Shown here piece after piece: positions 52,294-63,993 of a stretch of 64,000 bases of DNA; the first letter of the stretch is position 1; each line of letters opens with the position of its first letter. The notes beneath the pieces are model-generated. The model did no database searches. It was given only the letters and a program-made list of their open reading frames with translations, and was not told the DNA's origin. The DNA lies in the NCBI RefSeq assembly GCF_000238335.3, contig NZ_AHCB03000010.1, positions 143,553 through 207,552 of the forward strand, in the 5' to 3' direction. Both the position numbers and the translations under genes were made by a program. Source of the stretch: Pseudoalteromonas marina. GTDB taxonomy: Bacteria; Pseudomonadota; Gammaproteobacteria; Enterobacterales; Alteromonadaceae.

Positions 52294-54276
52294 ATGAAAA
52301 CCTTACTCAAAATTTTTGGTGTAATACTCTTACTCTGTATTGCTTTAATTGTGGCAGCGCCTTTTTTAATTCCTACCGATACCATTTTTAATAAAGTATC
52401 AGAGGAAGTTCAAAAAACGACGGGAAGAACGCTAACAATTAATGGTGACAAAACGCTTAGTGTGTTTCCTGCACTAAAGTTAGAGTTGAATGATGTCCAC
52501 TTTGCTAATATGCAAACAGGTTCGCGAGCTGATATGGCAAGTATGCAGCAGCTGGCAGTACATATACCTTGGTTCTCGTTATTTGGCGGTGAGTTTAAGC
52601 TTGATAAGTTTGTTATTAACGAACCAGATATTTTATTAGAGACAGATAAAAATGGCAAAGCTAACTGGCAGTTGTTTGATGCTGTAGCAGAGCAACCTAT
52701 AGAGCAACCTATAGAGCAAGCTGAGCCTGGTGAGGCAATTAAGCTGCCTGCTAACTTTGATATTGAGCTGGGTGAGGTCGCTATTTATGGCGGTACATTT
52801 ACATATCTAGATGGTCAAACGGGCGCCAAGCAGCAAATTAGCGATTTAGAGCTGGCTATTTTACTTCCTTCATTACGTAAAACCCTTGAGGTTAAAGGGG
52901 GGGTTACCTATATGCAGGAGCGATTTGAACTAGATGTAAAACTCGACACTCCTGCCAAAGCGATTGAAGGTCAGGCTTTTAATGTATCGCAAAATTTAGA
53001 TTCGCGCTTGGTTGAATTGACATTTAATGGCTCAATCGCAAAACAAGGGCAAGACATAAAAGGTCAATTAGCACTCAATGGCGAGTCGGTAAAAAATATT
53101 GCTAAATGGCAGGGGGTTGACCTAAATGCGAAATATAATGCGTTTAATGCATTTAGTGTAAATGGTAAAATGCATTTACTGGGTGAAAAATTCAAACTTG
53201 AAGAGTTAACTGCAACGCTTGATGAACTTCAAATTAAAGGTAAAAGCGAAATTAGTTTAGGTAATCGTTTAGCCATTAATGCAAATGTAGATTTGGGGAT
53301 GCTCGATCTTAATCCCTATTTGCCAGATGCCGTTGCTAAAAAAGAACAGCCGACTGAAGGCGATAGCAAACCGGCAGAGCCAATTGTTTGGGATGACACT
53401 CAAATTGATTTAAGCGCCCTTAAAGCACAAGATGCTAATGTAGTAATTCGTTCTAGTGGATTAATAGCAAATGATATAAAGCTGGGTGCGAACCAGTTTA
53501 CAGTGGCGCTAAATAAAGGTGTAGCTAAATTAAGTTTAGATAGCTTTTCAGCCTATGAAGGCGCTGGTAAAGGTGTAATTACGATTGATGCTCAAAATGC
53601 GCCTTATAAAATAGCTACAAACTTTAATTTAACAGATATAAATGCCCAGCCGTTATTAACTGATGCAACCGGTTTTGACAAGGTACTCGGTAGAGGTTCT
53701 TTAAATTGGAATTTATCTACAGCTGGACAAAGTCAAAAATCGTTTATCGATGCGCTAAATGGTAAGTTGGCATTTGAGTTTGCAGATGGTGCTGTAAAAG
53801 GGGCGAACATTGCTGAAATGGTTCGTAAAGGTAAAGAGATTATATCTGGTAATTTTGGCGCCGCTTCTGAAGGATTAGATACTGGCTTTGAAGAGGCAGA
53901 ACAAACAGATTTTTCTGCGCTTACAGGTAGCTTTAATTTTATTAAAGGTGTTGGACGCAATACTGACCTTTCACTAATTAGCCCTCTGATTCGTATTTCC
54001 GGTGAAGGAGATGTGGATTTACCTCTCACTAAAGTTGATTACCGTTTGGTAACAGGGATTGTAGATTCAATAGAAGGTCAAGGCACTACCGATGACAGTA
54101 CAGGCTTTAAAATACCGTTACGCATAAAAGGACCATTTCACGATGTGGGAATTAAACTTGATGTAAGTAATGCCTTAAAAGATGAAGCAAAAAAGAAACT
54201 CGATGACGCAAAAGAAAAAGCGAAAGAGAAAGCCAAAGATAAAGTAAAAGACAAATTAAAGGGACTATTTGGCTAA
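52294..54276 (+). CDS. AsmA-family protein
   Basis: A 660-residue inner membrane-anchored periplasmic protein. A helix (about 5-24) precedes the AsmA N-terminal domain (GRTLTINGDKTLSVFPALKL, then SLFGGEFKLDKFVINEPD). The C-terminal AsmA_2 part contains GRGSLNWNLSTAGQS and VDYRLVTGIV. The end is a Lys/Ala/Asp-rich helix (about 625-656). A 12-base direct repeat encodes EQPIEQPIEQ (about 134-143). AsmA-like proteins are thought to help move lipids between membranes. It occupies the place before rplN that the S10 operon holds in E. coli. Confidence 0.9.
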   Translation: MKTLLKIFGVILLLCIALIVAAPFLIPTDTIFNKVSEEVQKTTGRTLTINGDKTLSVFPALKLELNDVHFANMQTGSRADMASMQQLAVHIPWFSLFGGEFKLDKFVINEPDILLETDKNGKANWQLFDAVAEQPIEQPIEQAEPGEAIKLPANFDIELGEVAIYGGTFTYLDGQTGAKQQISDLELAILLPSLRKTLEVKGGVTYMQERFELDVKLDTPAKAIEGQAFNVSQNLDSRLVELTFNGSIAKQGQDIKGQLALNGESVKNIAKWQGVDLNAKYNAFNAFSVNGKMHLLGEKFKLEELTATLDELQIKGKSEISLGNRLAINANVDLGMLDLNPYLPDAVAKKEQPTEGDSKPAEPIVWDDTQIDLSALKAQDANVVIRSSGLIANDIKLGANQFTVALNKGVAKLSLDSFSAYEGAGKGVITIDAQNAPYKIATNFNLTDINAQPLLTDATGFDKVLGRGSLNWNLSTAGQSQKSFIDALNGKLAFEFADGAVKGANIAEMVRKGKEIISGNFGAASEGLDTGFEEAEQTDFSALTGSFNFIKGVGRNTDLSLISPLIRISGEGDVDLPLTKVDYRLVTGIVDSIEGQGTTDDSTGFKIPLRIKGPFHDVGIKLDVSNALKDEAKKKLDDAKEKAKEKAKDKVKDKLKGLFG

Positions 54277-54287
54277 GTAACCACTAG

Positions 54288-54328
54288 TAAAATAAACAAG
54301 GCACTTTTTAAGTGCCTTGTTTATTTTA
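54288..54328. terminator. Perfect 18-base hairpin after asmA
   Basis: TAAAATAAACAAGGCACT and AGTGCCTTGTTTATTTTA pair without mismatch around a TTTTA loop, and the right arm is T-rich. It is a strong terminator that insulates the ribosomal protein operon from the AsmA gene. Confidence 0.85.
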
Positions 54329-54428
54329 TAACCATTGAAAAAATAGTCACATAGCTTTAGCAACGTTAATAAAATCCCCTCAGTCCTTAAATTAATTAAA
54401 AAATAACCTATCGCTACATGCTCAATGC

Positions 54429-54437
54429 TGGTACAAT
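54429..54437 (+). promoter_or_regulatory. Candidate spc operon promoter, extended -10
   Basis: TGGTACAAT fits an extended -10 (TG-N-TACAAT) about 110 bases before rplN. No good -35 is seen at the usual distance, which is consistent with an extended -10 type. It is the only convincing promoter between the asmA hairpin and rplN. Confidence 0.45.
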
Positions 54438-54548
54438 TGCCCGCCCTTAAGAGACAACTCGTTTGTTTTTGAGTGGGATTTAATCGAAATGTCTTGATTT
54501 TAAACAATTTTAAGACACGTTGTAATTACTACACCGGAGGTCATTAAC

Positions 54549-54917
54549 ATGATCCAAATGCAAACTCAGCTGGAAGTTGCTGATAACAGCGGCGCTCGCA
54601 AAGTGCAGTGTATAAAAGTCCTTGGTGGTTCACACCGTCGCTACGCAGCGATTGGCGACATCATTAAAGTTTCTGTAAAAGAAGCTATTCCTCGCGGTAA
54701 AGTGAAGAAAGGTGATGTTAAAAACGCGGTAGTTGTGCGTACCAGAAAAGGTGTTCGCCGTCCAGATGGTTCTCTGATCCGTTTCGACAGCAACGCGGCT
54801 GTTATCTTAAATGATAACTTGCAGCCAATTGGTACACGTATTTTCGGCCCTGTGACTCGCGAACTTCGTAATGACAAGTTCATGAAAATCGTTTCACTAG
54901 CCCCAGAAGTACTGTAA
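54549..54917 (+). CDS. rplN: Ribosomal protein uL14
   Basis: First gene of the spc operon; 122 residues. The N-terminus [20 protein letters not shown] and the [13 protein letters not shown] stretch are typical of L14, a 50S protein at the subunit interface that binds 16S and 23S rRNA and L19. A strong CGGAGG site precedes ATG. Upstream is an AsmA gene rather than rpsQ. Confidence 0.98.
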
Positions 54918-62623: not shown

Positions 62624-63025
62624 ATGCGCCATCGTAAGAGTGGTCGTCAATTAAACCGTAACAGTAGCCATCGTAAAGCGATGTTCAGCAATATGGCAGG
62701 TTCTTTGGTGAAACATGAAATCATCAAAACTACTTTGCCAAAAGCGAAAGAGTTACGTCGTGTAATTGAACCTTTAATCACACTGGCTAAGACTGACAGT
62801 GTAGCAAACCGCCGTTTAGCGTTTGCTCGCACACGCGACAATGAAGTTGTTGGTAAATTATTCAGTGAAATCGGTCCACGTAACGCGGATCGTCCAGGTG
62901 GTTACACTCGTATTCTTAAGTGTGGCTTCCGTACTGGTGATAATGCACCAATGGCTTATATTGAACTAGTTGGTCGCCCAGCGACTAGCGAAGAAGTTCA
63001 AGAAGACGCACAGTCTGCAGAGTAA
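62624..63025 (+). CDS. rplQ: Ribosomal protein bL17
   Basis: 133 residues, starting [20 protein letters not shown], with [20 protein letters not shown] and the C-terminal [20 protein letters not shown]. It is the last gene of the alpha operon, followed by a strong terminator. Confidence 0.98.
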
Positions 63026-63040
63026 GTCTTAAAGAAACCT

Positions 63041-63067
63041 AAAAGCCGAGCTTATGCTCGGCTTTTT
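63041..63067 (+). terminator. Terminator of the alpha operon
   Basis: AGCCGAGC and GCTCGGCT form an 8-base stem around TTAT, followed by TTTT. It lies 19 bases after the rplQ stop codon. Confidence 0.92.
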
Positions 63068-63110
63068 AATGCCTGGAAATTATCAATAAAATTTCTGCAT
63101 TACTATATTT

Positions 63111-63671
63111 ACCTATTACCTATTACCTATTACCTATTACCTATTACCTATTACCTATTACCTATTACCTATTACCTATTACCTATTACCTATTACCTAT
63201 TACCTATTACCTATTACCTATTACCTATTACCTATTACCTATTACCTATTACCTATTACCTATTACCTATTACCTATTACCTATTACCTATTACCTATTA
63301 CCTATTACCTATTACCTATTACCTATTACCTATTACCTATTACCTATTACCTATTACCTATTACCTATTACCTATTACCTATTACCTATTACCTATTACC
63401 TATTACCTATTACCTATTACCTATTACCTATTACCTATTACCTATTACCTATTACCTATTACCTATTACCTATTACCTATTACCTATTACCTATTACCTA
63501 TTACCTATTACCTATTACCTATTACCTATTACCTATTACCTATTACCTATTACCTATTACCTATTACCTATTACCTATTACCTATTACCTATTACCTATT
63601 ACCTATTACCTATTACCTATTACCTATTACCTATTACCTATTACCTATTACCTATTACCTATTACCTATTA
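63111..63671. repeat. Perfect heptamer tandem repeat, 80 copies of ACCTATT
   Basis: From 63111 to 63671 the sequence is a 7-base unit repeated 80 times plus one base. I checked the phase at the start of each 60-base line and found no break. Degenerate half copies flank it (TATTTACC on the left, GCTATTTACC on the right). The plus strand has no G at all, so the minus strand is (AATAGGT)n with GG doublets. All three plus-strand frames are open (they encode the same Thr-Tyr-Tyr-Leu-Leu-Pro-Ile cycle) but contain no ATG, GTG or TTG. All minus-strand frames have stops. It lies between the rplQ terminator and an rRNA-type promoter. Confidence 0.97.
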
Positions 63672-63965
63672 GCTATTTACCACTAATCTGTAGTCATCTA
63701 CAACACGGCTCTATTTCATTAATGATTTAGCTAAGTGAGTAGCATTACTATAAAAACGGTAACGTTACACCAAGAAAAAATCATAAGCTAAAAAGGTTGT
63801 CACCATAATTACCTTTCAAATAAGCACTAGAAAGATATTTATCATCATACACTTAGTAAAATGGCGTTATTAGATAAATAAAGCTTACTATTAGTTGTGT
63901 TTTTGAGCGTTTAGCTCAAATACTCATCGAACAGCATGTTTTTTCAAGTTTTCTTCAAAAAAGGG
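63672..63965. other. Gene-free stretch between heptamer array and rRNA-type promoter
   Basis: About 290 bases, AT-rich, with no supported open frame. An inverted repeat TTTGAGC-GTTTA-GCTCAAA (63903-63921) and A/T tracts (63940-63962) lie just before the promoter. In rRNA operons such regions hold Fis sites and an UP element, but no site can be named with confidence. Confidence 0.55.
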
Positions 63966-63993
63966 TTGATCTGTTTTCGGATCTCCCTATAAT
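63966..63993 (+). promoter_or_regulatory. rRNA operon P1-type promoter at the window edge
   Basis: TTGATC (-35), 16 bases, TATAAT (-10), then GCGACCC. The block CTCCCTATAATGCG matches the E. coli rrn P1 text (CTCCCTATAATGCGCCACC) as I remember it. The 16-base spacer and the GC-rich discriminator are typical of promoters under stringent and growth-rate control. A/T tracts upstream could serve as an UP element for the alpha C-terminal domain. Transcription would start near 64000, so the rRNA genes would lie outside the window. Confidence 0.85.

Follow-up and report, generated by a model that had tools for sequence, protein, structure and literature searches.

Long simple-sequence repeats made of heptanucleotides are an established class in bacterial genomes. 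In the account of Mrazek and co-workers (2007), as cited in PMC4692102 and PMC4679880, heptamers are the most abundant of these repeats, the tracts are intergenic and of many units, and slippage is the proposed origin, with the bacterial preference for heptamers attributed to slippage across the stretch of DNA that the polymerase holds. The reason why bacterial tandem repeats favor units of seven has long been debated. Heptamers of this kind also appear in the excerpts of three papers on which we draw: GGGAATC and GGGGA(C/T)T in Xanthomonas and Nostoc, which are intergenic, lie near gene ends, and vary in length and sequence between relatives (PMC4692102); the intergenic TAACTGA repeats of marine Beggiatoaceae (PMC4679880); and the tracts of 13-38 copies in the Haemophilus hmw1A and hmw2A promoters, whose unit type at the locus depends on the strain (PMC2651432). 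According to the same excerpt of PMC4679880, 12 Pseudoalteromonas proteins matched LSVISYQ, the peptide repeat of TAACTGA, and heptamer tracts had thus been glimpsed in this genus before. The class of array is already known; the recurrent origin of such arrays at one set position past certain ribosomal-operon terminators, and the locus analyzed here, we found described nowhere in the open-license literature on heptamer repeats, Pseudoalteromonas, Alteromonadales, rplQ, rRNA operons, and Rho.

The window is a stretch of 64,000 nucleotides of Pseudoalteromonas marina (contig NZ_AHCB03000010.1, positions 143,553 to 207,552), whose end coincides with the end of the contig. Its array (Table 1) follows the genes rpsM-rpsK-rpsD-rpoA-rplQ, which Pfam identifies as the alpha operon, and begins 42 bp beyond the terminator hairpin of that operon; a consensus terminator scan reports the hairpin on the minus strand only, as the T run of the plus strand pairs mostly within the stem. 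From the array end to an rRNA-type promoter there are 294 bp. This promoter pattern occurs at 4 places in the source genome, and in the relative G097 the same gene order and promoter pattern run into a full 16S rRNA, so that the earlier note's placement of the array between the alpha operon and a probable rRNA operon is upheld through a relative, the source contig stopping before the rRNA. Farther upstream, the rplN start of the spc operon (52294-54549) comes directly after an AsmA-family gene (Pfam), an order shared by G097; this gene carries two short tandem repeats of its own, and presumably no S10 operon precedes the window's spc operon, unlike in E. coli.

Table 1. Positions, in window coordinates, of the array and neighboring features
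Feature	Position	Strand	Basis or remark
12-bp tandem repeat in AsmA-family gene	52689..52719		2.6 exact copies
12-bp tandem repeat in AsmA-family gene	54208..54255		4.0 copies, 80% match
rplQ (ribosomal protein L17), last alpha-operon gene	62624..63025	+	Pfam Ribosomal_L17, E 3.1e-38
Alpha-operon intrinsic-terminator hairpin with T run	63041..63066	+	Fold -18.3 kcal/mol, z -5.2; accepted by a purpose-built terminator finder
Perfect heptanucleotide array	63109..63671	+	Exact period 7 over 563 bp
Degenerate 3' edge of array, AGCTATT-like	63672..63684	+	Sole imperfect stretch, read from sequence
rRNA-type promoter TTGATC-16-TATAAT	63966..63993	+	Pattern scan; contig end 4-7 bp beyond

Direct counting gives 80 perfect copies of ACCTATT at 63111-63670, and Tandem Repeats Finder reports 81.3 copies of period 7 at 63109-63677 with 99% matches, which together confirm the earlier description of 80 copies without drift. 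The chance of such a perfect run is about 10^-326 per site at the window's composition, and with exact 7-bp units set head to tail in copies far above chance, the array belongs to the long heptanucleotide simple-sequence repeats. Its 563 bp contain 160 C and 0 G; the absolute strand bias claimed for it is therefore correct as a count, but is simply a property of the unit. A three-copy ACCTATT pattern has 78 overlapping matches in the source genome, every one inside the array and 0 on the opposite strand, and the window together with a further 344 kb of the source genome holds no other exact array (at least 4 copies, units of 5-15 bp).

The figure of 80 copies comes from the assembly, and several observations suggest that it is doubtful as the true copy number, as the earlier note had already suspected. 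It is almost four times the runner-up in the genus sequence examined (21.1 copies), and the other ACCTATT arrays read in the order reach at most 22.4 copies, which 80 exceeds by a factor of 3.6. Two more contigs of the source assembly stop at the same rRNA-type promoter and have about 60-65 bp in common with the window contig, which suggests reads too short for counting a 563-bp array, and in G008 and G096 a contig breaks off within an array, as expected of short-read assemblies. Assemblies may break or miscount at such arrays. That the array is real while its length is an assembly product, with a true length nearer the 3-22 copies seen elsewhere, is thus a serious possibility, though one that we rate short of probable: the contig crosses the array and has unique sequence on either side of it, and long arrays do exist, with up to 38 heptamers in Haemophilus in the portion of PMC2651432 concerned.

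To place the locus in the genus, 107 genomes were searched and DNA downstream of rplQ was taken from the 100 with an rplQ match, 99 of which were usable; the 7 genomes with no match and G016, whose match was partial, were left out. Counting exact arrays of at least 3 copies with units of 5-15 bp within 400 bp, 19 of the 99 genomes carry an array behind rplQ, in 10 different units. Five are heptamers (ACCTATT, AACTAGC, ACCTAGC, AACCCTG, and ATCTTCT), four are octamers (ACTTATCT, ACCTATTT, ATCTGTTT, and AACTGATT), and one is a hexamer (AAAAGT), each given in its first rotation. G058, with about three degenerate units, and G008, whose contig stops after roughly two copies, were scored as array-free under these criteria. 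The arrays start 61-123 bp from the rplQ stop codon in 18 of the 19 genomes and 197 bp from it in the other, always past a terminator (19/19). In the rplQ spacer, position and approximate period recur while the word changes. The distance from rplQ to the promoter ranges from 224 to 1374 bp over the 66 loci with a promoter match, and we accordingly reject a spacer of fixed length, which disposes of the proposed buffer in that form.

Similar arrays occur at the ends of other genes. Across 30 genomes, chosen to include 13 of the 19 with rplQ arrays, they were found behind rpsI at 8 of 29 loci, behind rplS at 8 of 30, and, as a hexamer, behind rplT at 1 of 30, with none behind atpC or lexA (0/30 loci each), where the spacer has room; ligA was uninformative as a control (0/30), since the median distance to the next gene is 15 bp and no locus of the 30 has 150 bp. 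A terminator lies between stop codon and array at all 17 positive rpsI, rplS, and rplT loci and, with rplQ added, at 36 of 36 array-bearing loci. By Fisher tests, whose independence is overstated because species share arrays by descent, the lexA and atpC ends taken together (0/60) differ from rpsI plus rplS (16/59, p = 4e-6) and from rplQ (19/99, p = 7e-5). Counted by us as separate unit types, the arrays number 10 at rplQ, 3-4 at rpsI, 3 at rplS, 1 at rplT, and 0 at atpC and lexA. A survey of the promoter pattern returned 33 sites in 10 of 12 genomes; of the 30 sites read, three have an array, all adjoining rplQ, and none of the 23 away from rplQ has one within 1.5 kb. The link to rRNA operons that the earlier note proposed consequently falls, as arrays are absent from these 23 sites and recur behind rpsI and rplS, and an rRNA-operon-associated element was rejected. 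A pure expression effect was likewise set aside, atpC (0/30) and rplT (1/30) speaking against it. Some operon ends, then, act as hot spots without the rRNA operon being the cause, and high expression alone is not the rule, because the atpC and rplT ends are nearly array-free.

The source array is young. A tree was built from the rpoA-rplQ DNA of 36 of the 99 species and rooted by midpoint only. In it the source genome (G000) has G064 as its sister (support 100/100) inside a 12-species clade, the other 11 members of which, the sister included, lack an array; the source array was thus gained recently and independently of the similar array that G097 carries in another clade, and the idea of a recent expansion without drift is supported. 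The earlier note had also reasoned that a locus-specific role would be unlikely if relatives lacked the array here and had random heptamers elsewhere; the nearest relatives do lack it, but the locus proves to be a hot spot for many short-unit arrays. At the matching place, offset 77, 7 of the 11 array-free clade members carry ATTACCTTCTAT, which is plausible as the seed of the source array.

Differences among relatives reach the unit itself. In G090, 11 repeats of ACCTATTT run into two copies of the G063 unit, and in G019 eight copies of ACCTAGC are bordered by AACTAGC, which its closest neighbors on the tree have as their unit; both look like one unit replacing another, the kind of trace that slippage would leave if a variant unit swept the array. 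Behind rpsI, G067 and G095 share array places with different copy numbers, 20.4 and 3.7, and of the sisters G000 and G064 the first has an rplQ array and the second has none. In another gammaproteobacterium a block of ATTACCT (7.9 copies) adjoins a block of ATTACCC (3.7 copies), a further sign of unit turnover.

Period seven predominates in the genus. Among arrays of at least 4 copies in the genus sequence examined, some of them counted twice, 59 of 66 rows (25 units) have period 7, and the remaining 7 have period 8 (4 rows, 4 units), 6 (2 rows), or 4 (1 row); all four octamer arrays lie behind rplQ. Density is uneven: a 400-kb stretch holds 20 heptamer rows in G067 and 2 each in G097 and G023, 204 kb of G000 holds 1, and 18 stretches of 5 kb from further genomes hold none. 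Outside exact arrays, similarity at lag 7 is raised in G067 (0.285; mean 0.273, sd 0.0035) and shows no rise in G000 or G097. Several of the 20 heptamer rows of G067 (G067:C1:400001-800000) have a stop codon on one side and a repeated terminator-like element (AACCTTGCGATATTAACCGCAAGGTTTTT) on the other, and contain more G than C in sense. In G097 (G097:C1, near 3515366-3516000), an array of 10.7 TGTCAGT copies lies between a gene end and a hairpin and is followed by several near-identical copies of one intergenic stretch and then by a gene that we take to be tuf.

ACCTATT itself is rare in the genus, arrays of at least 4 copies being found in 2 of 108 genomes, the source and G097, which has 8 copies at the same place. 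In an order-level draw of 295 genomes (G097 left out), 4 have an ACCTATT array, namely the source and three from another family, whose arrays, by eye, come after a hairpin at the end of a different gene. Across phyla the unit is common, foremost in cyanobacteria (at least 120 stretches). Among at least 129 arrays at no fewer than 120 loci, 40 of those lying no more than 25 bp from a stop codon read AATAGGT in the sense direction, against 4 that read ACCTATT; we do not build a strand rule on this count, as AATAGGT repeats contain stop codons in every frame and the bias is at least partly trivial.

We consider the array to be, probably, a hypermutable and hypervariable heptanucleotide repeat that strand slippage produced in the tolerant, unconstrained spacer just past the terminator of the alpha operon. 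The starting point would have been a short near-repeat at the spot, duplicated first and then extended in whole 7-bp steps. Mismatch repair usually corrects loops smaller than 7 nt. Steady gain and loss of copies would keep them identical and let a mutated unit sweep the array. Many species have acquired arrays, in different units, within one stretch of a few dozen bases; that the array might be a slippage by-product was among the options listed at the outset, and the unit turnover at array edges fits it. In E. coli, the relevant part of PMC8360656 places transcription-dependent positive supercoiling in a region that starts just within the 3' end of rplQ and extends about 2 kb downstream. By analogy, positive supercoiling behind rplQ could favor slippage there, and array birth may be helped by torsional stress in the wake of so active an operon. 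The comparisons establish the place, its recurrence, the unit turnover, and the recent gain; from them we infer that slippage is the process, that torsional stress assists it, and that the array has no sequence-specific role. Slippage alone leaves unexplained why arrays are gained at rplQ, rpsI, and rplS and not at the roomy atpC and lexA ends, as well as the single array among 30 rplT loci, and the lack of the proposed seed in the sister G064 also counts against it. A broader reading, which we regard as tentative and rather unlikely, is that the bases just past certain ribosomal-operon terminators form a conserved cradle, in which a physical process at very active operon ends (torsional stress, fork stalling, or 7-bp stepping by a polymerase) writes 7-bp arrays again and again and the cell keeps unstructured C-over-G tracts as a buffer or Rho-loading stretch, so that place and period are conserved while the word is free.

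Rho could also account for the array more directly, as a putative backup terminator in which the factor would load on read-through (ACCUAUU)n and remove polymerase ahead of the rRNA promoter. Unstructured, G-free RNA suits Rho loading, and the sense RNA of the array folds to 0 kcal/mol with no G over 563 nt, as the C-over-G, unstructured transcript of a Rho utilization site should; all 36 array-bearing loci examined behind these ribosomal genes have the array past an intrinsic terminator, and C exceeds G in 15 of 18 untied units behind rplQ, rpsI, rplS, and rplT (p = 0.004 against 0.5). Array-free spacers lean to C too, however (0.63), which makes the excess marginal (p = 0.054), the units TAAAAG, TTAGAAG, and TTCAAGG lean the opposite way, the G067 arrays between stop codon and hairpin have G over C in sense by eye, and 80 of the 99 species manage without an array, so that we judge this role possible but unlikely. 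Still less credible is a contingency dial in which copy number would tune rRNA or ribosomal-protein expression, by analogy with the Haemophilus hmw promoter heptamers. The heptamers are perfect and presumably length-variable, and hmw loci likewise swap unit type between strains, but the nearest known promoter is 294 bp away as against about 70-105 bp at hmw (both hmw statements from the excerpt of PMC2651432), and the array lies behind rplQ rather than before it, with no variable surface function and most relatives lacking it. A binding array for a specific, putative DNA-binding protein might be read from the uniform copies and fixed place; with 19 species showing 10 different units at this one place, and 80 species and the close relatives showing none, it is the most improbable of these readings, and because the unit is not conserved at the orthologous place we reject a conserved protein-binding array, a role that the earlier note had suggested.

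A hot spot of the rplQ type, with intermediates in close relatives, makes the birth, homogenization, and replacement of arrays directly testable, and the array could serve as a fast typing marker. As far as the excerpts cited above describe them, the known systems differ from it in several ways. The hmw1A and hmw2A tracts lie upstream of a surface-protein gene and alter its expression (PMC2651432), and the TAACTGA repeats of Beggiatoaceae are one unit at about 169 places, in 2-6 copies and mostly just before start codons (PMC4679880). Xanthomonas and Nostoc have one G-rich, quadruplex-forming unit per genome (PMC4692102), whereas Pseudoalteromonas has many units, of which ACCTATT contains no run of three G. 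Compared with the long heptanucleotide repeats that PMC4692102 and PMC4679880 cite from Mrazek and co-workers (2007), Pseudoalteromonas stands apart in gaining its arrays repeatedly, across the genus, in one short stretch behind one terminator.
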